DNA of 43,910 nt from an uncultured Blastocatellia bacterium. Its GTDB lineage: Bacteria; Acidobacteriota; Blastocatellia; Chloracidobacteriales; Chloracidobacteriaceae. Made by a program: the position numbers and the translations under genes. This document shows positions 20,714 through 32,613 of this stretch, piece after piece (the stretch's first letter is position 1; the number at the start of each line of letters is the position of its first letter). The notes beneath the pieces were generated by a model that was not told the DNA's origin, did not search any database, and was given only the letters and a program-made list of their open reading frames with translations. The stretch lies in contig CALGZC010000062.1 in NCBI GenBank assembly GCA_937934745.1, positions 1-43,910 of the forward strand. The letters are read 5' to 3'.

Positions 20714-22237
20714 CTACAGGTCAATGACCGTTCCCGGTACCAGTAGTTTTTGCGCAATCAGTTCCTGCACCAGCAACAGCGTCTCTAGGTCGCCCCGCAG
20801 TTCCTGACAACATTGATCGAGGGTGCGCGTCCCATCAAAGAGCCGGCGAACTTGCTCAAGGTTGGCGGCAAACTCCCCGGCCTGCGTGATCTGCTCGGCA
20901 ATTTCTGGGGCGCGCTCAAAGCCATCCCCGCAGATGAAGGTCTGCGTCCGGTCGGGCAGTTCGGCAATAATGTGTTCGACTTCATCAAAACGCCGAAATG
21001 CCTCCATCAGCAACTGCTGAGGGTTGAGCTTGACGGCTGCCTCCCGGGTCACCGGCACCGAGTGGAACGTAAAAGTTCCACTGACCCAGCCCACCAACCG
21101 GAAGAACGCCTGCTCGGCCCGCGCCGTGCCGTATTCCACATCAACAATACTGCCTTCCCGAAAGTAAAGCTTGGCTTTTTCGTCCTGCTGGGTCAGCAAT
21201 AACAAGCCCGTCCGACGACCTGTTTCAAGCATTTGAACGATTTCCGCCAAGCTGACCTGTGCCAGCTTGCCCTGCAAGTCCACCGGCGGACGGATACGCT
21301 TCAGCAAGCGCTTGACACGGTGGCGGATTTCCATCGGGCGAAAGGGTTTTGACCAATAATCCTCAACGCCCATTTCAAAGGCAGCCATCCGCTCGGCTTC
21401 ACTATCTGCCGAAGACAAACAGACAAAGGGCACGTGCGCCTGGTCCGGCTGTGCGCGCAGCCACTCAAACAACTGGCTTCCATCCATCTCCGGCATGTTG
21501 AGGTCGCTAATGATGAGCGACGGCTGGTGAGCCTTAATCAACTCACAGGCAACGCGGCCGTTCGGTGCCGACAGTACAGGCGTCCCCAGTCCGCGCAGGC
21601 TGTTTTCAAGCACTGCCAAAATCCCCGGCTCATCATCCACAATGAGCACGGTTAGTTCGGGAAAGTATTCTTCGGGATCACGCACAGCCGCCTGTTTACG
21701 TTGCCAGGTTCCGCGCACCCCCCCAACCGTTGTTACATTATCCGCCTCAAGGCCGGCCAACAACTTCAGTTCACGCCGGTACAGAATGTCTTTCGGTCCG
21801 AGCTCGGGTAGCAGGTTCACAAAGTCTGCCACGCGAGCCTGGTCGCCGAGTTCCATCAAGTATTCGACAATCTGCTTGGCACGCCCGAAGGCATCGTCGA
21901 ACCGTCGCAGGCGTAGGTTGGTGTCAAACAATCTGCGCCAGATGTCAAGCCGCGTTTCCCCGGCGGACAACCGCTCGGCTTTGCGAAAGTACATCATGGC
22001 TTGCTCGAAATCCTGCCGTTCAAGGTAGATTGCCCCCGTACGCATCAAAACCTCGCAGGCTTTTTGGGGTTCGCCGCGTTCCTGATACAACACACCCAGT
22101 TCCCGGAGTGCAGACAGGTTGCGTGCATCGCGCACCAGTTCGCGTTCGTGGCGCTCAATCGCGCTGTTGAGTTTGGCGTTATCCAGCGCATCGGCGACTC
22201 GTGCGCGGGCGCTGAGAATGCGATCAAACAAACCCAT
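20714..22237 (-). CDS. TPR-receiver-PATAN response regulator, copy 1
   Basis: A 507 aa regulator with three parts. Residues about 25-165 form tetratricopeptide-like helices (LSALRELGVLYQERGEPQKA, EQAMMYFRKAERL). Residues about 196-315 are a CheY-type receiver with the acidic pair in LIVDDEP, the phosphoacceptor Asp245 (ISDLNMPEMDG) and Lys297 (WSKPF). Residues about 320-440 match PATAN (DUF4388: GKLAQVSLAEIVQMLETGRRTG, KLYFREGSIVDVEYG). The helical C-terminus resembles the extensions common after PATAN. There is no DNA-binding domain, so the output is probably protein-protein. The ATG at 22237 has GAGG five bases upstream, and MGLFD matches the paralogue. It lies 357 bases downstream of copy 2 on the same strand. 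Confidence 0.9.
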   Translation of the reverse strand: MGLFDRILSARARVADALDNAKLNSAIERHERELVRDARNLSALRELGVLYQERGEPQKACEVLMRTGAIYLERQDFEQAMMYFRKAERLSAGETRLDIWRRLFDTNLRLRRFDDAFGRAKQIVEYLMELGDQARVADFVNLLPELGPKDILYRRELKLLAGLEADNVTTVGGVRGTWQRKQAAVRDPEEYFPELTVLIVDDEPGILAVLENSLRGLGTPVLSAPNGRVACELIKAHQPSLIISDLNMPEMDGSQLFEWLRAQPDQAHVPFVCLSSADSEAERMAAFEMGVEDYWSKPFRPMEIRHRVKRLLKRIRPPVDLQGKLAQVSLAEIVQMLETGRRTGLLLLTQQDEKAKLYFREGSIVDVEYGTARAEQAFFRLVGWVSGTFTFHSVPVTREAAVKLNPQQLLMEAFRRFDEVEHIIAELPDRTQTFICGDGFERAPEIAEQITQAGEFAANLEQVRRLFDGTRTLDQCCQELRGDLETLLLVQELIAQKLLVPGTVIDL

Positions 22238-22594
22238 AGCAACCTCGCTGTGCTGCTCACTGACTTGGGGACGGATCGCCGGCAAGCGACGGATTATCGT
22301 CCACGAGAAGCCTTGTCTCTTCCGGGCAGAACCTACTCACGTGCAGCACATCATGCCTCAACCGCACATCGGATGCCTAGTGTCACACTCTATCGCACCG
22401 ACAGTGCCAAATCTCAGGTCCGCGCCTTGAAGCCGTTGGGTCGGTCACAAAGCACAGCCACGGGAAACAAAATACCGGGGTCGTGGCGGCCGGTTTTGCA
22501 AAGACCGCCCGGAAATCACGGGGCAATGACGGCGCGCTTCCCGAAGTATCCCTGCCTCAGAGGTTGTGCCGCCCCGGTGTGGGTAGCCAGACCC
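22238..22594. other. Intergenic gap between the two PATAN regulator genes
   Basis: These 357 bases separate two same-strand paralogues. I see no protein-like frame that is not a shadow of the genes on either side, and no clear terminator. The gap is long enough to carry a separate promoter for copy 1, but I could not pick one out with confidence. Confidence 0.5.
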
Positions 22595-24109
22595 CTATAT
22601 TTTTTTCGGTGTGAGGAGCTTGTGGTCGAGCAGTGCGCGCACCAAAAGCAGCGTCTCCAGATCATCGCGCAACGCCTGACAGCACGCTTCCAAGGTCCGC
22701 GTCCCATCAAAGAGCCGCCGGATGGTTTCGAGGTTGGGAGCAAATTCCCCACCCTGCGCCATCTGTTCGGCAACTTCCGGAGCTTCGGCAAAGTCCGGTT
22801 TGCACACGAACACCTCTTGCCGCCAGGGCAGGCTGTTCAGAATTCGTTCAACCTCATCAAACCGTCGGAAGGCTTCCATTAACAACTGCTGTGGCGAGAG
22901 TTGAATGACCCGCTCGCGCAGCATTGGCATCGTACAGAAGGCGAAATCGCCGTTTGTCCAGCCGACCAAGCGGAAAACCGCTCGTTCGGCAGATAAGTCA
23001 CCGCACTCGGCGTTGAGAATCATCCCCTCCCGAAAGTACAAGTAAGCCTGTTCGCCACCGGACTCAATGGTTAGCATGCCCGTCCGACGGCCGGACTCCA
23101 AGATTTGAATAATTTCCGCCAAGTTGACCTGGGACAACTTCCCCTGAAAATCCACAGGACGCCGAATCCGGCGCAGAAGATGTTTGACCCGGTAGCGAAT
23201 CTCTGTTGGATGAAAGGGCTTTGTCCAGTAATCCTCAACGCCCATCTCAAAGGCGGCGACCCGCTCAGCTTCCGATCCGATGGCAGAAAGACACACAAAG
23301 GGCACGCGCGCATACTCCGGCTGTGACTTCACCCACTCAAAAAATTGGCTCCCATCCATGCCCGGCATGGCCAGATCGCTAATGATGAGCGAAGGTGTGT
23401 AACGCTTGACCTTTTCACAGGCCAGATGGCCATTTCCGGCCGTTACGATACGCGCACCAAGCGTCCGCAGAGAGGTCTCAAGCAGCTCCAAAATCTGTGG
23501 TTCATCATCCACGATCAGAATCGTCTGCCCTGGAAAATACTCATCGGCGCTGCGCAAATGTCCAGACGCCCGGCGCCACGTCCCGGCAGACAGACCGTTG
23601 CCGAGACTTTGCCGTTGGGTGACACCGGCTAAGCTTTCTAAAATCTGGCGGTACTCGGCGTCCTTGGGGCCTAGGTCGGGGAGCGCGGCGAGAAAGTTGC
23701 TCACGCGCTTCAGATTACCACGCTCAACCAACGCTTCTACAATCTGCTTGGCGCGCTCAAACGCCTCATCGTTGCGGCGTAGCTTGTAACTGAGATGAAA
23801 TAGCTTGTGCCAGAGGTCGAGACGGAAATCGCCAGAAGCAAGCCGTTCTGCCTTCCGGTAGTTCAGCAAGGCTTGCTCCGCATCGCCGCGTTCGGCTGCG
23901 TATTCACCTGCCCGGTAGAAGACATCACAAGCTTTTTGATTTTGTCCTTGCTCCTGATATAACCGTCCAAGTTCCTGAAGTGTAGGAAGGTGTTTGGGAT
24001 CAGACTGGAGAATTTTTTCACACTGCTCAATCGCCACTGCCAGCACCGTGGCGTCTTGGACAGTCGCCATTTGGCCGCGTGCGTTTCGGATGTCATCAAA
24101 CAATCCCAT
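22595..24109 (-). CDS. TPR-receiver-PATAN response regulator, copy 2
   Basis: Paralogue of the preceding regulator, 504 aa, with the same architecture and colinear key residues. The N-terminal helical repeats include PTLQELGRLYQEQGQNQKA. The receiver has LIVDDEP, Asp245 (ISDLAMPGMDG) and Lys297 (WTKPF). The PATAN domain starts near GKLSQVNLAEIIQILESGRR, with AYLYFREGMILNAECG. The C-terminal part ends in the shared signature RRLFDGTRTLEACCQALRDD. The ATG at 24109 is chosen because MGLFD aligns with copy 1; an open frame continues upstream to 24322 but is not protein-like. It lies 98 bases downstream of the pseudokinase gene, so the three may be coexpressed. No cognate histidine kinase is adjacent. 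Confidence 0.9.
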   Translation of the reverse strand: MGLFDDIRNARGQMATVQDATVLAVAIEQCEKILQSDPKHLPTLQELGRLYQEQGQNQKACDVFYRAGEYAAERGDAEQALLNYRKAERLASGDFRLDLWHKLFHLSYKLRRNDEAFERAKQIVEALVERGNLKRVSNFLAALPDLGPKDAEYRQILESLAGVTQRQSLGNGLSAGTWRRASGHLRSADEYFPGQTILIVDDEPQILELLETSLRTLGARIVTAGNGHLACEKVKRYTPSLIISDLAMPGMDGSQFFEWVKSQPEYARVPFVCLSAIGSEAERVAAFEMGVEDYWTKPFHPTEIRYRVKHLLRRIRRPVDFQGKLSQVNLAEIIQILESGRRTGMLTIESGGEQAYLYFREGMILNAECGDLSAERAVFRLVGWTNGDFAFCTMPMLRERVIQLSPQQLLMEAFRRFDEVERILNSLPWRQEVFVCKPDFAEAPEVAEQMAQGGEFAPNLETIRRLFDGTRTLEACCQALRDDLETLLLVRALLDHKLLTPKKI

Positions 24110-24207: not shown

Positions 24208-25914
24208 TTAGCGTTTGGCGCGCACCACGCGAAAACCACCGTTGAACCAATAGTTCAAGGTTGGGTCGAAGCGAAAGCGCGCCGTTGGGCGGCAAGGCAC
24301 TGTACTGAAGTACCATGAACAACCGCGCAAAACCTTATGTGTTCCGCGTGGTAGGCCTTTCGGGTTGGTTTGTGGTTCGGAGGGATAGGGTCCATACCAA
24401 TCCGCACACCACTCCCAGACATTCCCCATCAAGTCATAAATCCCCAGCTCATTCGGCGGACTTGTCCCGACTTCATGCGGCGCACCGCCGCTGTTGTAAC
24501 TATCCCATCCAATCGGGCTGTTGCGGGCGACATATTCCCACTCGGCCTCGGTCGGCAGGCGGTACAGGTCACCGGTGCGCTCGCTGAGCCAGATACAGTA
24601 CGCGTTGGCGTCGTCCCAACTGACGCGCACTACCGGATGGTTTGGGTAATCCAGGAAATAGTTCCGCAATCTGGCAAAATTTGGCTCTTCAGGATAGGGA
24701 CGGCGTGTCGCGTCGCAGAACGCTTTGTACTGTGCGTTGGTGACTTCGTACTTACCGATTTCAAAGTCAGAAAGCGTCACGCGCCGCACCGGTTGTTCGT
24801 CCGGCTGGCCGTCCAGACTCCCCATCTCGAAGGTCCCTCCTTTGACAGCGACGAGGGGTGGAAAAAGTGCTGCGTTGTCTGCCGGCGGGCTGAGTGGCGT
24901 CAGCTTAGGACGACTCGCCGTGGCCGACTCCTGGCGCAGTGCCTCAATGTTCGGCCGGCTTGCCGTGCTCTGTCCCCCGCCGAGCAGAAACTTGGTTGCA
25001 AGGCGGTACGTTGCCAAACTGACAACCAGGAGCAGCAAACTGCTCATCCCGGCCAGAAAGATTCTAAACCCCTTCCCGGTGGGTTTTTCCCCGGTGCCGC
25101 TCAGGTCGGCAAAAGCCTGCGCCAGACCGTCAATGAAGCCGGTTGGCGCAGTTGGTTCAGGCGGCGGCGCAGCCCGTTTGAGCGCGGCTTCGTTGACAAC
25201 GAAACCGGTGCGTTCGGAGATCACCGGCAGCGTCCGCCGCGCTGCGGTCGCCCGCGTTTCACGTCGGACCGGCGCTGCCCCGGTTGTCTCGGCCGGCGTC
25301 GCAGGTTCAGTGGCGGCCACTGGCGCCGAAAGGAAAGGCAGCGCAACCGGTTCAGAGGGCGCTTCCAGGAGCGCCAACAAATCACTCACTCGCTTCGCCC
25401 GGCTTTGTTCGTCGCGGGCGGTAGCCAGCGCAATCAGGCGTGCGATCTCGACCGACACGGACGGACGGACGGCACGCGGATCCGGCACAGGTGGTAGTTC
25501 GGCGGCGTCATCAAAATCCGTGCGAAAATTGTAGGTCGAGCGGTGTTCCGGTGCCGGTCGCCCCGTAGCCAGTTGATAGAGCAAAACGCCCAACCGGTGA
25601 ATGTCCTGCCGAATGCCCTGTGCAACTTCCTCCGGCGTCGGCGACTTCGCCGCCAACCGTGACTGCGGGATACCACAATCGAGAACGCGGGGCGGCCGGT
25701 CGGCACTGAGGATGATGTTTTCCACGCGCAGCTCACGGCCGTAAAAGGCGCATTGGTCATGCATGCCGCCGACAATCCGCACGATCCCTAAAAACAATTC
25801 CAGGGCTTCTTCGTTCGGTAACGGTGCGCCGTAAGCTTTGAGGTAGTCACCTAGGTTTCGGTTCATGGCCGCAGTCTCAAGCGTGTCCGGCGGGGGATCA
25901 AGTGCAGTCGGCAT
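24208..25914 (-). CDS. N-lobe-less pseudokinase fused to FGE-sulfatase-like domain
   Basis: A 568 aa protein with three parts. Residues about 17-190 read like the C-lobe of a Hanks-type Ser/Thr kinase, but the N-lobe with its glycine loop and ATP-binding Lys is absent. The HRD-x-K-x-x-N site reads GRELRVEN and DFG reads DCG, so phosphotransfer is unlikely. A low-complexity Ala/Pro/Thr linker leads to one transmembrane helix (about 284-304, FLAGMSSLLLLVVSLATY). Residues about 352-568 are a formylglycine-generating enzyme-like domain (GGTFEMGS, YEVTNAQYKAFC, RLPTEAEWEYVAR, DLMGNVWEWCADWYG, GGFRVVRA). At the FGE active-site segment, RGCSWYFSTVPC, only the second catalytic cysteine appears conserved, so it may be a binding domain. 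An in-frame GTG at 25926 is a less likely start. It lies upstream of the PATAN regulators. Confidence 0.85.
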   Translation of the reverse strand: MPTALDPPPDTLETAAMNRNLGDYLKAYGAPLPNEEALELFLGIVRIVGGMHDQCAFYGRELRVENIILSADRPPRVLDCGIPQSRLAAKSPTPEEVAQGIRQDIHRLGVLLYQLATGRPAPEHRSTYNFRTDFDDAAELPPVPDPRAVRPSVSVEIARLIALATARDEQSRAKRVSDLLALLEAPSEPVALPFLSAPVAATEPATPAETTGAAPVRRETRATAARRTLPVISERTGFVVNEAALKRAAPPPEPTAPTGFIDGLAQAFADLSGTGEKPTGKGFRIFLAGMSSLLLLVVSLATYRLATKFLLGGGQSTASRPNIEALRQESATASRPKLTPLSPPADNAALFPPLVAVKGGTFEMGSLDGQPDEQPVRRVTLSDFEIGKYEVTNAQYKAFCDATRRPYPEEPNFARLRNYFLDYPNHPVVRVSWDDANAYCIWLSERTGDLYRLPTEAEWEYVARNSPIGWDSYNSGGAPHEVGTSPPNELGIYDLMGNVWEWCADWYGPYPSEPQTNPKGLPRGTHKVLRGCSWYFSTVPCRPTARFRFDPTLNYWFNGGFRVVRAKR

Positions 25915-26195: not shown

Positions 26196-27275
26196 CTAAC
26201 CGTTTTTCTCGGCGGCTTCTGCGGCTTCGGCAGCTTCAGCCTTTTCGGCTTCGATCAGCGCATTGCGATACGGATCTGCCAGCCGGATTAGTGCCTTGGC
26301 CCGCAGGTCGCGCAGATACGCCTTGACCTTGGCATCTGTACGTTGTTGGGCAATCAGGCGTTTGACCAGGTCGCGCACCTCTGAAAATGGCTTGACCGAG
26401 GGCGGTCGGCGTGCCTCCAGCCGCAGGATTTGGTACGCCTTTTCGAGCTTTAGAATCGGCGTTATCTCACCTGGCTTGAGTTTCTCAAGTTCGGCCTTGA
26501 AGGCCTCGGCTAGTTGGTCTTCCTGGTAGGGCGGTAGTTTGCCGCCCGTAGCGCGCGAGGCACGTTTTTCATCGGAAAACTTCTGGGCAACCTCGGCAAA
26601 CGGCTTGCCTGCCTTGAGTTCACTGTAGGCTTGGCGCGCACGCAACTCGGCGGTGGCCTGGGTCTCCGGTGTAAAGGCGATGTAGATTTCACTGATTTCC
26701 AGTTCGCCGGGCTTTGTGAACTCGGCTGTGTGTGTGCGGTAGTAGTCCTCCGCTTCGCGGCTGGTCACCTGTTCAATCAAGACGCTGTACACATCTTGGC
26801 TGTAAACGGCTTGGCGCATGAACTGCCCGCGGTAGCTGGCGCGGATGTCTTCTAGGGACAAACCCTGCTGCTCAATGGCGTGGCGGCAGGCGTCGAGGTT
26901 CTCAAGGTTATTTTGCTTACAAAGTTCCAGCACCGTTGCGTTAATCTGTGCCTCGATTTCCGGCAGGACACCCATTTCTTCCGCCCGTTGGGCAATGAGG
27001 CGCTCGTCAATCAGACTGACGAGCAAGCGTGGTTGCAAACGGGCAAACACTTCTTCCTGTTTAGCCGGATCGTTTGGGAACTGCTCCTGAAGGTCACGTC
27101 GCAAAGCTCGTTCTGCCCGCTGCAACATTGAGCGGGTAATCAGGTCCTTGTTGACGCTGGCCAGCGTTTCATCAATGACGATAGCCTCTTGCGCAACCGC
27201 TACCGTTCGGCTGAGCATTGGACAAGCAGCAGCCAGGAGCCACCCGCAGCTCACCGCCAACCACAGAGTGTGCAT
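26196..27275 (-). CDS. SurA-like periplasmic peptidylprolyl isomerase
   Basis: Exported parvulin-type foldase, 359 aa. The ATG at 27275 has AAGGTGA eight bases upstream and opens a signal peptide (about residues 1-29, ending VAVAQ); a longer form starting at 27326 is possible. A SurA N-terminal domain follows (ASVNKDLITRSMLQRAERALRR, LLVSLIDERLIAQRAEEMG). One parvulin/PpiC domain follows (EISEIYIAF, KAGKPFAEVAQKFSDEKRA, GGKLPPYQEDQLAEAF, ITPILKLEKAYQILRLEAR). Only one isomerase domain is evident, against two in E. coli SurA. The tail is an Ala/Glu repeat (EAEKAEAAEAAEAAEKNG). It probably helps outer-membrane proteins fold. The 269 bases before the next gene hold no clear feature. Confidence 0.88.
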   Translation of the reverse strand: MHTLWLAVSCGWLLAAACPMLSRTVAVAQEAIVIDETLASVNKDLITRSMLQRAERALRRDLQEQFPNDPAKQEEVFARLQPRLLVSLIDERLIAQRAEEMGVLPEIEAQINATVLELCKQNNLENLDACRHAIEQQGLSLEDIRASYRGQFMRQAVYSQDVYSVLIEQVTSREAEDYYRTHTAEFTKPGELEISEIYIAFTPETQATAELRARQAYSELKAGKPFAEVAQKFSDEKRASRATGGKLPPYQEDQLAEAFKAELEKLKPGEITPILKLEKAYQILRLEARRPPSVKPFSEVRDLVKRLIAQQRTDAKVKAYLRDLRAKALIRLADPYRNALIEAEKAEAAEAAEAAEKNG

Positions 27276-27398
27276 CTTGACATTCACCTTACCAAACTCC
27301 CATCCCAACAAGGTTTTTTCACGCATGCCGGCTACATCTGTCGCTCTGCACCGGCTGCGTATCCTACGTCAGACACCGGCGGGAATGAAACTCTACCA

Positions 27399-28892
27399 CT
27401 AGGGGGGTAAGCCCAGGGAGGAGTCCCTCGTCGGGGCCGAGCGCGGCCCCAATGCCAGCCCCAACACAAACCACAGCGCCATTGCCACTTCACCATCACC
27501 AAGATTGAAGTGGGCTATGCCGCCGATGGCAAAACCGGCCAGGGCACCAATTGCCCCCAACGCCACACCGTTGCCAACACGTTCCAGCAGCCGCCCGAAG
27601 TAAGTCAACAGCAGCCAGAAGTAGGCTGCCAGGGCCGGCAGGCCATACCACACGGCGATTTGCAGATACGTGTTGTGGAAGTGGCCTGGCGGTAGGTCGC
27701 CGGCGGCATACAATCCCCATTCGGCAGCATGTAGCTTGTCGCTCTGCCGTCCGACACCGAACCATGGGTGGGCCGATACCAGTCGCACACCTTCGTGCCA
27801 CACCACCAGCCGCCAAAACAAGCTCCCCTCGCGCGCATCTGTCACGGCCATCCGGCGCATTGCGTAGGCGTAAGCTAACACACCGGAGAACAACATCCCG
27901 GCCAGCACGACGCTGACCACCATCCGCTGTGTGCGGAGTGTTCCTTCACGCCAAAGCAGATACAGCATCACACACAAGCTCACAACAAGGCTTCCGGTTG
28001 GTCCCCGCGAGAGGGTCAGCCACAGCGCCAGGAGGAGGAGTCCAGACGCCGCCCACAGCCACCGCCGCGCCGCTCGTGGGGCACGCCATGCCATGCCAAT
28101 TGCGAGAGAAATCAAAATCTGAAGCACCTCGGCGTAGGTGACATAGTGTGAGAAAAAGCCGCTGGCGCGAAAATCACGCGCCGGCTCACTCGCCTGAATC
28201 CCTAACCCCGAAGTGCCTGCGCTTTCCAGTCGCTGCCGCAGTGCGCGCCGGTCAAGCTCTACCCTGAGCGGCAGTTCGACGCGGCGGCCGGTGAAGAGAA
28301 CAGGTTGGTCGGCCGGTGCCGTGTGCCGGCCGAGCATCTGGGCAATCTCCTCCGGTGTGTGCAACGAATGCCCATCGACTTGCAACAACACATCCCCCGG
28401 CTGAAAGTACGGGCGCAGTGGAGAATCAGGTGCCAGCTCGACAAGACGCACCCCGACGCCGACCACCAGTTGGTAACCCGTGTAGAGGAGTCCAATCTGT
28501 GCCGACGCCAAGACGACACAGGCCAGCCGCCAGGCTTGAGCCTGCGTCGCAACCCAGCGGGCGACGACGCCGCACGACCCCATAAAGGCCACACTGCGGA
28601 GGCCGTCTAAACTCACCCGTGGTTCATATGAGCCAAGGGCAGAAACCGTACACAATGTGAAAAAGACACTAAGCGGTAGCCATACATCGGCCGTTTGTTC
28701 TGCTTCCGGTGGCAGAGCCTGCGTGTCGGGCGGGCGGAGGAAGTAGTCCAGTAACCAGAGCAACGCCAGGGCCAGCGCACTTCCCTGCGCAACTGCAATA
28801 GAGTGGGGGACTGCCACAGCAAACAGAAACAGCAGACCCATTGAAAGCGACCGAATCATTCGCCGGAGCAGGTTGTGCACCCTCAGCAACAT
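27399..28892 (-). CDS. O-antigen ligase-like membrane protein with PDZ-like insertion
   Basis: Polytopic membrane protein, 497 aa from the ATG at 28892 (an ATG at 28859 or a GTG at 28934 are alternatives). The second half matches the Wzy_C/O-antigen ligase family: LTLSRGPTGSLVVSL with the conserved Arg, RLVVWHEGVRLVSAHPWFG, then GHFHNTYLQIAVWYGLPAL. Such enzymes join undecaprenyl-linked polysaccharide to lipid A-core, polymerise O-units or glycosylate proteins. Unusually, residues about 144-214 read like a PDZ domain between transmembrane segments: VRLVELAPDSPLR, FQPGDVLLQVDGHSLHTPEE, RRVELPLRVEL. This would face the periplasm. It is the last gene of this minus-strand group and is divergent from the DUF58 gene. 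Confidence 0.85.
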   Translation of the reverse strand: MLLRVHNLLRRMIRSLSMGLLFLFAVAVPHSIAVAQGSALALALLWLLDYFLRPPDTQALPPEAEQTADVWLPLSVFFTLCTVSALGSYEPRVSLDGLRSVAFMGSCGVVARWVATQAQAWRLACVVLASAQIGLLYTGYQLVVGVGVRLVELAPDSPLRPYFQPGDVLLQVDGHSLHTPEEIAQMLGRHTAPADQPVLFTGRRVELPLRVELDRRALRQRLESAGTSGLGIQASEPARDFRASGFFSHYVTYAEVLQILISLAIGMAWRAPRAARRWLWAASGLLLLALWLTLSRGPTGSLVVSLCVMLYLLWREGTLRTQRMVVSVVLAGMLFSGVLAYAYAMRRMAVTDAREGSLFWRLVVWHEGVRLVSAHPWFGVGRQSDKLHAAEWGLYAAGDLPPGHFHNTYLQIAVWYGLPALAAYFWLLLTYFGRLLERVGNGVALGAIGALAGFAIGGIAHFNLGDGEVAMALWFVLGLALGPRSAPTRDSSLGLPP

Positions 28893-29032
28893 AACCCATC
28901 CACTGTTGGTCTTCTCTGGCGGCCCCCACGGCACGACACCACAAGATGTATTCCCGGAGCCGCCGTTGCATCGGCAGCGGACGGATACTATGTTGCCATT
29001 CGCTTAAAAAACACCCCCTACCGTCCTGTCCC

Positions 29033-30396: not shown

Positions 30397-32613
30397 TTAC
30401 GGCTTGAGCCGGTATGTCGTGCGAACGCGCTGCATGGTTGAGCCGCCGGAGGCGCGGACAATGCCCTCTGATTTGGAAAAGGCTATTTCCGGCGCCGTCG
30501 CCGTGCCCTGTGCAACGTCTTCGACCCGCGCCAGACGGCCGGCCATCAGGTAGCGGTCATCCGCTGCGGTATAGCGCGCGACATCGCCCACTGCACGGCG
30601 GCCCGGCTGGACAATGACCACCTCCCCCGTCGCCGTCAGGCGCTCAAGGCGGTTTTCACGGGCGGCTAACTCGACCTCCACCATGTTGGCTGTCAGAACT
30701 GTATCGCCCTGTACCAACTTAACTTGTTCGGCGTAACGGGCCCGCCGCTCAACATCACTGTAGGTAAATGTTTCCGCCTTACCAAACAGCGGGTCATCGT
30801 GGCGTGGCGGGTTGCCCGTCGCCGGACGCGCAGGGCGATAAAAGGCTGTTGCAACCTGTCCGGTTGCTGTTAGACGACGGTCGGCTTTGAACAGTTCCAA
30901 TCGGTCGCCGCGTACAAAACTGTCGCCTTGCCAGCACCGTGCGTCACCAATAAAGACCGCCTGCTCCGGCTCAGCATAGGCTTCATTCGAGGTGATAAAC
31001 ACCGGCGCATCCGGCTCCCTGAAAACGCCGGCCGTCCCGGTCCGGTGGGCGTCGTAGTAGGTTGTGCGTATGCCCCCACGCGCAACATGCCGGCGACCAC
31101 TGACCGCAATGTCAAGCTCTTGCGCCTCCATACGCGCCACATCGTCCCAGATCGTCGGGCGCTGACGTGTGCCGCGCAGTTCAATGACTTCCCGAACTTT
31201 GATAAACGTGGCGCGTTCAGCTCTGGCGTGACGCAGGCCTTCCTCAAAGGTCACATTGCCGGTTTGAATAACGTGCGTCAGCTCGCCATGCACGGCGTCA
31301 AACACAACCTCGGCGTGATCACTGGTTGTTTTTCGTGGTGGACGATTCCCGTTCGGAAGGGCCGGTTCACCCACCAGCTCAACACCGCCGGTCGCAACGC
31401 AAGCGTGTATTTTGCCGTCGGGGTAAAAACTGGCCTCAAAGCGCGAAGCACGAACGGTTCTTTGCTCGCCATGCGGCGTTGGCGTCAGCGGCGTTACTGA
31501 GAGCACAGCCCTACCATCAGCAGTGGCAGTCTGCAGGACACGGCCGCCGGGAGCAAAGGCGACCCGTAGAGTGTCGGCCATGATCCGCTTCTGCTCTGAC
31601 GCGGACGACGTCGCGCTCGGTACGAGGAAAAGCCGGGCGTTGCCTGTCACCTGCGCGGATGTGATGTCGCTGCCGCCAACACCACGGGTAAATTCGGCCT
31701 CTAGACGGTCACCGGAGACTTCGCGCCGTTCAGTTTCAGTTTGGTGGCAGAGTGTCGCCTGCCCTATGCCCACCGCGCGGGTCAATCCGCCCGGCGGATC
31801 AAAGTCAAATGTCAATGTTTGCGCCGTCAACAACAATGCTTTTTCTGAGCTTTGGAGCGCAGCAGCTGTTTGCGCGTCCACCCGCCGTAGGCGTTGGGCT
31901 TCATCAAGCTGCACCGTCAAGGTTTGGGCAGAGAGCATATCGCCGCGTTGTGTGACCTGCGCACGTCCCCCTAACACCAGGCGTTTTTCTGGCACCAGGT
32001 ACTCACCATAGCCGGCCGTGATGACGGTCGTCGGTTGGTCGGGCTTTTCAGGAGCAACGGTAGCCCGCACGGCCCTTTCAAGTTTCAGTCGCCCAACCTT
32101 GCCATCGAAGTGGGCGCCGGTGGCTTCTCCATCAACACGCCCACGCCCAAACTCCACCCGGTCAGATGTGGCGGCAGTCTCTGCTTCACGGTCGTAGCGA
32201 AGTGTTTCTGTTCTGATGGAGAGGCCGTCCGTTGTCATGATCACTACGCGGCCTTTGAAATCAGAAACTCGCGCTGTCGGGTCATAGTCACAGGTAGCGG
32301 CCGTGAGCTTGCCAGTGAACCGCCCTTGGGCGTCAAAGATCTGCAACTCCACGCCCTCCAGTGTGTGCCGCCCATCCACAAAGGCAGTGTCCCGCTCGGC
32401 GCGCAAAATGAGCCGTGTGACATCACCTTCCTTGTGCAGGTACTGCAAGTCCTTCGAGATGACTTCAATATCCGGCGTAAGATCACGGCGTCCTTCCTGG
32501 ACGGGCTTCGATGGTACGCGGCGGATGACAAGGTATGACACCAAGTAAGCAGTCAGGACCAGGACGCCGGCCAGCGCCAGAAATCGAAGCTGACGGTGCG
32601 CCATAGGCGTCAT
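30397..32613 (-). CDS. LptC-LptA (OstA) fusion-like LPS transport protein
   Basis: A 738 aa protein anchored by one N-terminal helix (about residues 11-30, LALAGVLVLTAYLVSYLVI). Residues about 45-210 resemble LptC (ISKDLQYLHKEGDVTRLILRAER, VELQIFDAQG, then TLRYDREAETAATSDRVEF). The rest, to about residue 725, consists of repeated OstA/LptA-type beta segments (YLVPEKRLVLGGRAQVTQRG, ARRYAEQVKLVQGDTVLTA, RLERLTATGEVVIV). LptC and LptA form part of the periplasmic bridge that carries lipopolysaccharide to the outer membrane. E. coli LptC and LptA are about 190 aa each and separate, so this is a large combined form. Its ATG overlaps the nagZ stop by four bases (ATGA), which implies translational coupling. 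LptB, LptF and LptG are not in the window. Confidence 0.83.
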   Translation of the reverse strand: MTPMAHRQLRFLALAGVLVLTAYLVSYLVIRRVPSKPVQEGRRDLTPDIEVISKDLQYLHKEGDVTRLILRAERDTAFVDGRHTLEGVELQIFDAQGRFTGKLTAATCDYDPTARVSDFKGRVVIMTTDGLSIRTETLRYDREAETAATSDRVEFGRGRVDGEATGAHFDGKVGRLKLERAVRATVAPEKPDQPTTVITAGYGEYLVPEKRLVLGGRAQVTQRGDMLSAQTLTVQLDEAQRLRRVDAQTAAALQSSEKALLLTAQTLTFDFDPPGGLTRAVGIGQATLCHQTETERREVSGDRLEAEFTRGVGGSDITSAQVTGNARLFLVPSATSSASEQKRIMADTLRVAFAPGGRVLQTATADGRAVLSVTPLTPTPHGEQRTVRASRFEASFYPDGKIHACVATGGVELVGEPALPNGNRPPRKTTSDHAEVVFDAVHGELTHVIQTGNVTFEEGLRHARAERATFIKVREVIELRGTRQRPTIWDDVARMEAQELDIAVSGRRHVARGGIRTTYYDAHRTGTAGVFREPDAPVFITSNEAYAEPEQAVFIGDARCWQGDSFVRGDRLELFKADRRLTATGQVATAFYRPARPATGNPPRHDDPLFGKAETFTYSDVERRARYAEQVKLVQGDTVLTANMVEVELAARENRLERLTATGEVVIVQPGRRAVGDVARYTAADDRYLMAGRLARVEDVAQGTATAPEIAFSKSEGIVRASGGSTMQRVRTTYRLKP

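Follow-up and report, generated by a model that had tools for sequence, protein, structure and literature searches.

We found that a minus-strand gene of an uncultured Blastocatellia bacterium encodes the C-lobe of a Ser/Thr kinase without an N-lobe, followed by one membrane helix and by a domain of the formylglycine-generating enzyme (FGE) type. The window, i.e., the whole stretch of DNA analyzed, comprises 43,910 nucleotides (contig CALGZC010000062.1, assembly GCA_937934745.1), and its features are collected in Table 1. The architecture is conserved beyond chance, with eight orthologues (the window protein included) and a dN/dS well below 1 for every region. On balance, this single-pass protein, which is conserved in Chloracidobacterium and in one sister genus, probably has no catalytic role and serves as a receptor, adaptor or scaffold. 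The frame was open throughout, and the ATG start at position 25914 was supported because the MPTAL- sequence opens the aligned orthologue in 7/7 genus genomes, although translation might instead begin at a GTG located 12 bases upstream of it.

Table 1. Features of the half-kinase gene and its two neighbours (positions are those of the window).
Feature	Positions	Strand	Description or basis
Whole gene	24208..25914	-	568 residues, starting with ATG; positions include the stop codon
Region homologous to the kinase C-lobe from alpha-D on, without N-lobe, residues 19-188	25351..25860	-	Pfam, orthologue profile, structural model
Degenerate catalytic loop, residues 58-66	25717..25743	-	YGRELRVEN replacing HRD.K..N; alignment
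DCG replacing DFG, residues 79-81	25672..25680	-	Asp79 kept in 8/8; alignment
Conserved linker block, residues 223-246	25177..25248	-	Orthologue alignment, dN/dS, class-wide search
Conserved juxtamembrane block, residues 258-283	25066..25143	-	Orthologue alignment, dN/dS
Single hydrophobic membrane helix, residues about 283-305	25000..25068	-	Hydropathy
FGE-like domain (PF03781, SUMF1-type), residues 352-566	24217..24861	-	Pfam and structure-profile matches
FGE active-site strand, residues 530-541, RGCSWYFSTVPC	24292..24327	-	Position of the first Cys = Phe536, second Cys = Cys541, extra Cys532 replacing Gly
Downstream neighbour, TPR + receiver + DUF4388 response regulator	22595..24109	-	98 nt from the gene, with its ATG at 24109
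Upstream neighbour, SurA/PpiC-type peptidyl-prolyl isomerase	26196..27326	-	281 nt away

The Pkinase model (PF00069) matched the window protein over profile positions 81-252 (of 263), and scored 17.5 bits, where the curated cut-off is 31.7. The Pfam scan covered this protein and three of the seven other orthologues (L017, L019 and L023), whose matches also began at profile position 81 and were likewise under the cut-off (21.8, 15.0 and 17.3 bits, respectively). A profile of the eight orthologue N-terminal regions matched StkP with an E of 8.6e-9, residues 20-186 being aligned to positions 119-294 of the chain. A model of residues 1-196 was computed from 51 rows (59 candidate segments, of which nine were removed, one as a duplicate of the window and the others as partial or near-duplicate, plus the window itself). 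It had a mean pLDDT of 85.6, with lower values (60-66) over residues 1-20, and its top Foldseek match was M. tuberculosis PknB (E 4.2e-7). VIA-align superimposed 159 residues of it on residues 88-274 of S. aureus PknB (Z 17.1, 3.8 Å); several other VIA-align rows matched the poorly predicted start of the model to parts of the PknB N-lobe, with a larger rmsd (e.g., 1o6y from residue 31, 4.9 Å). Hence, by the orthologue profile and the model, this part has both the homology and the fold of a Ser/Thr kinase C-lobe. Since intact kinase C-lobes were among the alignment rows, the model restates the homology and is no independent evidence for it. The prediction of the whole protein from the eight orthologues was poor (pLDDT 38.8) and was set aside, the usable model being that of residues 1-196 only.

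All eight orthologues start just before the alpha-D region of the alignment, and neither the alignment nor the upstream flanks contained a Gly-rich loop, a VAIK Lys or an alpha-C Glu in any of them. An in-frame stop was located 14-74 codons upstream of the ATG across the eight genes. When 25 N-lobe queries from the same genome were compared with the upstream flanks of the orthologues, only chance-level matches were obtained (best E 0.023, in a small set), the control kinase giving an E of 6.5e-55. Furthermore, 62 stop-to-stop frames at the gathered loci matched the C-lobe profile. In the 54 frames of other proteins the match was preceded by 78 residues or more; in the eight orthologue frames it was preceded by 14-74 residues, none of them N-lobe-like. 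The initial annotation had described the N-terminal part as an N-lobe-less pseudokinase, and this description was upheld: no homologue at the locus, out of eight, carried an intact N-lobe. The weak kinase match, and the presence of a broken kinase-FGE gene elsewhere in the same genome, would agree with a truncated or decaying kinase-FGE gene, or with a misread start. Such an origin is nevertheless highly improbable and was rejected, given the same form in 8/8 orthologues of two genera, the purifying selection on the C-lobe (dN/dS about 0.07), the upstream stops, the chance-level upstream searches and the retention of both neighbours in 7/7 genus genomes. The lack of an N-lobe is not due to truncation of the gene, since it is common to the seven genus genomes and to the sister genus.

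The catalytic residues of the C-lobe were then compared among the orthologues. The HRD motif had been read as GRE; its degradation was confirmed, but not that exact reading. In the genus (7/8) the His is replaced by Tyr58, followed by an inserted Gly59, by Arg, Ser or Gln at position 60, and by Glu61, so that Glu stands in place of the catalytic Asp. In the sister genus (1/8) the region reads Tyr-Glu-Asp and the Asp position is kept. The replacement of DFG by DCG, also annotated initially, was present in all eight orthologues; by itself it would not abolish kinase function, because the metal-binding Asp (Asp79) is retained. The catalytic-loop Asn66 was likewise retained in 7/8. The Asp of DFG and that of alpha-F were separated by 24-25 residues in 8/8 orthologues versus 37-58 (median 42) in 43/43 intact kinases. 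As judged from the sequences, kinase activity would be excluded by the architecture, namely the missing ATP lobe, the short DFG-to-alpha-F segment and the degraded HRD, and it is mainly the missing N-lobe, and not the DCG, that would preclude phosphotransfer.

Asp79 and Asn66 are residues that a pure scaffold would not need, and their retention would also suit a split kinase, in which another protein would supply the N-lobe in trans. This arrangement has very little probability and was rejected: none of the 35 kinase stretches listed in this genome was a lone N-lobe protein, and the sole match limited to profile positions 1-153 (C4:86642-87100) has its own catalytic loop, with the rest of the kinase directly after it. 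In addition, with a DFG-to-alpha-F segment about 17 residues under the median and a degraded HRD, completion would not restore a normal active site.

One clear hydropathy peak was detected at residues 283-301 (19-residue mean 2.0-2.5), at the same place in 8/8 orthologues, in agreement with the single transmembrane helix proposed initially. In the 20 residues flanking the helix, the number of Lys and Arg residues was higher on the FGE side in all eight; in the window protein there are two before and three after the helix, and two acidic residues before and none after it. Taken alone, these charges would favor a location of the FGE-like domain inside the cell, which argues against the scaffold reading proposed here. 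They decide little, however, because L004, a kinase-TM-FGE protein from this genome with an intact kinase, shows the identical pattern of two such residues before and three after. The FGE-like domain may perhaps lie outside the cytoplasmic membrane, in the cytoplasm-periplasm arrangement suggested initially.

The C-terminal domain matched PF03781 (FGE-sulfatase) with 171.8 bits (cut-off 23.3), and its profile matched 6muj with an E of 4.8e-28. It is the same domain as in the FGE enzymes (human SUMF1 and the bacterial structures), with which it shares the second active-site cysteine. We take the first active-site cysteine to be Cys336 in the human and Cys269 in the Thermomonospora enzyme, and the second to be Cys341 and Cys274, respectively. 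In 8/8 orthologues the first aligns with Phe536 and the second with Cys541, which bears out the initial annotation of an FGE-like domain without its first cysteine. A further difference from the enzymes is that the second Gly of the RGGS motif is Cys532; the Ser of this motif (Ser533 here) presumably has an active-site role in FGE. Cys541, Ser533 and the lineage-specific Cys532 were invariant in 8/8 orthologues, and the CSFC pattern was found in all eight and in no other aligned row.

How often the first cysteine is lost was addressed by a census of 186 aligned stretches, 109 of which had both cysteine positions aligned; these rows were gathered by similarity to the window protein and are no random sample. 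Both cysteines were present in 15 rows, only the second in 31 and neither in 63, so that the first was missing in 94/109. Nine of the 31 rows with only the second cysteine were orthologues, the window's own copy being counted twice among these nine CSFC rows. The absence of the first cysteine is thus a frequent state in the superfamily, Cys532 alone being peculiar to the orthologues. Because Phe536 occupies the position of the first cysteine, even with the second one kept, formylglycine formation by this domain is unlikely; the missing cysteine speaks against sulfatase activation, and not against every activity. The description of the protein as doubly inactive therefore holds firmly for the kinase half and only in part for the FGE half, in which the state without the first cysteine is the commoner one among the gathered rows.

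Selection acted unequally on the parts of the protein. The dN/dS ratios over genus pairs (Nei-Gojobori) were 0.073 for the C-lobe, 0.155 for the linker, 0.045 for the juxtamembrane block and 0.019 for the FGE-like domain, using those of the 21 pairs with a finite dS (18, 16, 11 and 13 pairs, respectively); the ratios are rough because dS is near saturation, and all are still far below 1. Compared with the sister genus, the C-lobe was 45% identical and the FGE-like domain 82%. By these sequence comparisons the C-lobe is under purifying selection, and the FGE-like domain much more strongly so. The linker and juxtamembrane blocks were both well conserved among the orthologues. We rejected the idea that they belong to a linker module shared with other proteins: a search with residues 212-286 covered 162 genomes of the class, and the best match outside the orthologues, which lay in two genus genomes, was a 71-aa frame with an E of 4.6e-4 (for one genome) that was taken as chance.

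The strong constraint on the FGE-like domain makes an enzyme of another kind the main rival reading. Here the FGE-fold domain would be catalytically active in a metal- or redox-dependent reaction other than sulfatase activation, and the C-lobe and the helix would only anchor or regulate it. A dN/dS of 0.019, the difference in identity between the two parts, which would suit an enzyme that carries the kinase part as a minor addition and weighs against a scaffold, and the invariance of Cys541, Ser533 and Cys532 all point in that direction. EgtB, PvdO and SenA are enzymes of the same fold, and their models matched the domain at 83-86 bits. These scores, however, are far under the respective cut-offs of 360, 500 and 420 bits, and an identity with any of the three was rejected on that ground; moreover, the first cysteine is Phe in 8/8, and strong constraint would equally suit a binding surface. 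We consider this reading plausible but less likely than the non-catalytic one.

FGE-fold domains also occur in putative conflict systems, according to PMC8195603, PMC7159879 and PMC10907252. The last of these sources lists FGE/CLec domains as known targets of diversity-generating retroelements and notes kinase domains in target proteins, and the structure of a Treponema variable protein was among the matches of our FGE-like domain. One could accordingly imagine the FGE-like C-terminus as a hypervariable binding domain of the C-type-lectin fold. That the gene is such a target is scarcely credible, and it was rejected, since the last 213 nt have no second copy in the own genome that could act as template repeat (only the self match and a 21-nt match, E 0.6, were found) and the C-terminus hardly varies within the genus.

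In the family of the window genome (10 genomes), full-length relatives were present in 7/7 genomes of the genus (Chloracidobacterium) and in one of the three from other genera (G007), whose orthologue is 58% identical; G008 and G009 match only via FGE domains of other proteins. Named records that bear an orthologue are Chloracidobacterium sp. CP2_5A, an uncultured Chloracidobacterium and one metagenome-assembled genome titled Actinomycetota. The title of the last (L065, JAAFHI010000348.1) looks wrong, since its scaffold name points to Acidobacteria and it carries the sister-genus orthologue. Among the 80 loci retained from 197 confirmed relatives, three matched along almost the entire protein. 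Both parts were also spanned by the Cellvibrio-type loci L100, L102 and L103; the HRD is intact in L102 and L103, the preceding residues numbering 115 and 104, respectively. Of 396 genomes of the phylum, with three candidates scored per genome, five reached an E of 1e-60: four of the genus, and G021 via its FGE part only.

The protein was then compared with other kinase-FGE fusions. Those of the same genome (L004/L178 and L005/L181), L024, L025, L032 and L104, and L102 and L103 of Cellvibrio likewise have an N-terminal kinase-derived part and a C-terminal FGE-sulfatase domain, and L004 and L005 share with the window protein a hydropathy peak between these parts. Unlike the window protein, they have more complete kinases: L004 matches Pkinase profile positions 1-253 with 177 bits, and the others were judged by frame reading or by an intact HRD together with a C-lobe match preceded by 100 residues or more. 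Two disrupted genes were observed in the window genome: at G000:C4:76200-79900 (L196) a kinase-FGE gene lies in pieces, with a 176-aa kinase fragment (profile positions 93-198) followed by FGE stretches with stop codons, and at G000:C4:86359-87100 (L197) a kinase extends over two frames (profile positions 1-153 and 157-259), perhaps by an assembly frameshift.

The closest FGE-like domains outside the orthologues, among the 80 retained relatives, were those of the Blastocatellia PEGA-FGE proteins L066 and L067 (48-49% identity), with L204 of the same kind. These proteins carry PEGA where the window protein has its kinase part, and they do not have Cys532; a scan of L066 alone detected an N-terminal hydropathy peak, PEGA and then the FGE domain. 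A tree of 104 FGE domains was built, from which those outside 170-420 residues and nested duplicates were dropped, the root serving for drawing only. The eight orthologues formed one clade (100/100), which was joined to L066/L067 with a support of 93/94, slightly short of the starred threshold, and a 100/91 fork of 77 rows holding the orthologues and L066/L067 shut out L178 and L181. Because its FGE domain groups with the PEGA-FGE proteins, apart from L178/L181, the fusion looks separate in sequence from the kinase-TM-FGE fusions of the same genome. A neighbouring clade, joined by a weak fork (86/75), held further kinase-FGE proteins (L024, L032 and L102), such proteins being spread over several clades; by these sequences, the whole fusion may be linked with L024, L032 and L102.

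Degraded kinase homologues with non-catalytic roles, like the one proposed here, have been described in bacteria. Compared by description only, EssB/YukC, a transmembrane pseudokinase, and MviN are of this sort in the consulted parts of a 2025 review of bacterial pseudokinases (PMC12599244). The pseudokinases in those parts are kinase domains with degraded motifs, unlike the window protein, which has no N-lobe at all. In the main text of that review, FGE, formylglycine, sulfatase and the string "truncat" do not occur, and the single "N-lobe" concerns MviN. Among the titles and abstract beginnings of open-licence PubMed Central articles, no description of this protein or of a bacterial half-kinase was found.

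Both neighbours adjoin the gene in 7/7 genus genomes (the window and six others), and neither was found beside it on the contig of the sister genus, which is only 4976 bases long. An operon conserved beyond the genus was hence rejected, and the restriction of the conserved neighbours to the genus weighs against the scaffold reading. Other genes of the window were noted as well. The response regulator downstream and the gene at 20714-22285 (-) are two tandem paralogous TPR-receiver-DUF4388 response regulators. At 27399-28934 (-) an O-antigen-ligase-like protein (Wzy_C) is encoded, with a PDZ-like stretch ahead of Wzy_C (22.2 bits, cut-off 27). The 738-aa protein at 30397-32613 (-) combines an LptC part with three LptA/LptD-N stretches in a single polypeptide, an apparent LptC-LptA fusion.

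Beyond the architecture, we infer every functional step of the mechanism. As suggested initially, the protein would act in signalling or as a scaffold, and it would neither transfer phosphate nor make formylglycine. Its FGE-fold domain, perhaps located beyond the cytoplasmic membrane, would bind a ligand or partner, and the C-lobe together with the conserved juxtamembrane blocks would dock a second partner, e.g., an intact Hanks-type kinase or the response regulator next door. In its most specific form, this is a half-kinase docking module in a transmembrane receptor, fused to a binding domain of the PEGA-FGE type separately from the fusions of the same genome and with no catalysis at either end, which we put forward as a tentative proposal.

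If this is correct, the lower half of the kinase fold, kept alone under purifying selection, can be a useful module. The protein would also allow kinase functions that need no catalysis to be tested cleanly, because its architecture would leave no two-lobed site of the usual kind for ATP to bind.
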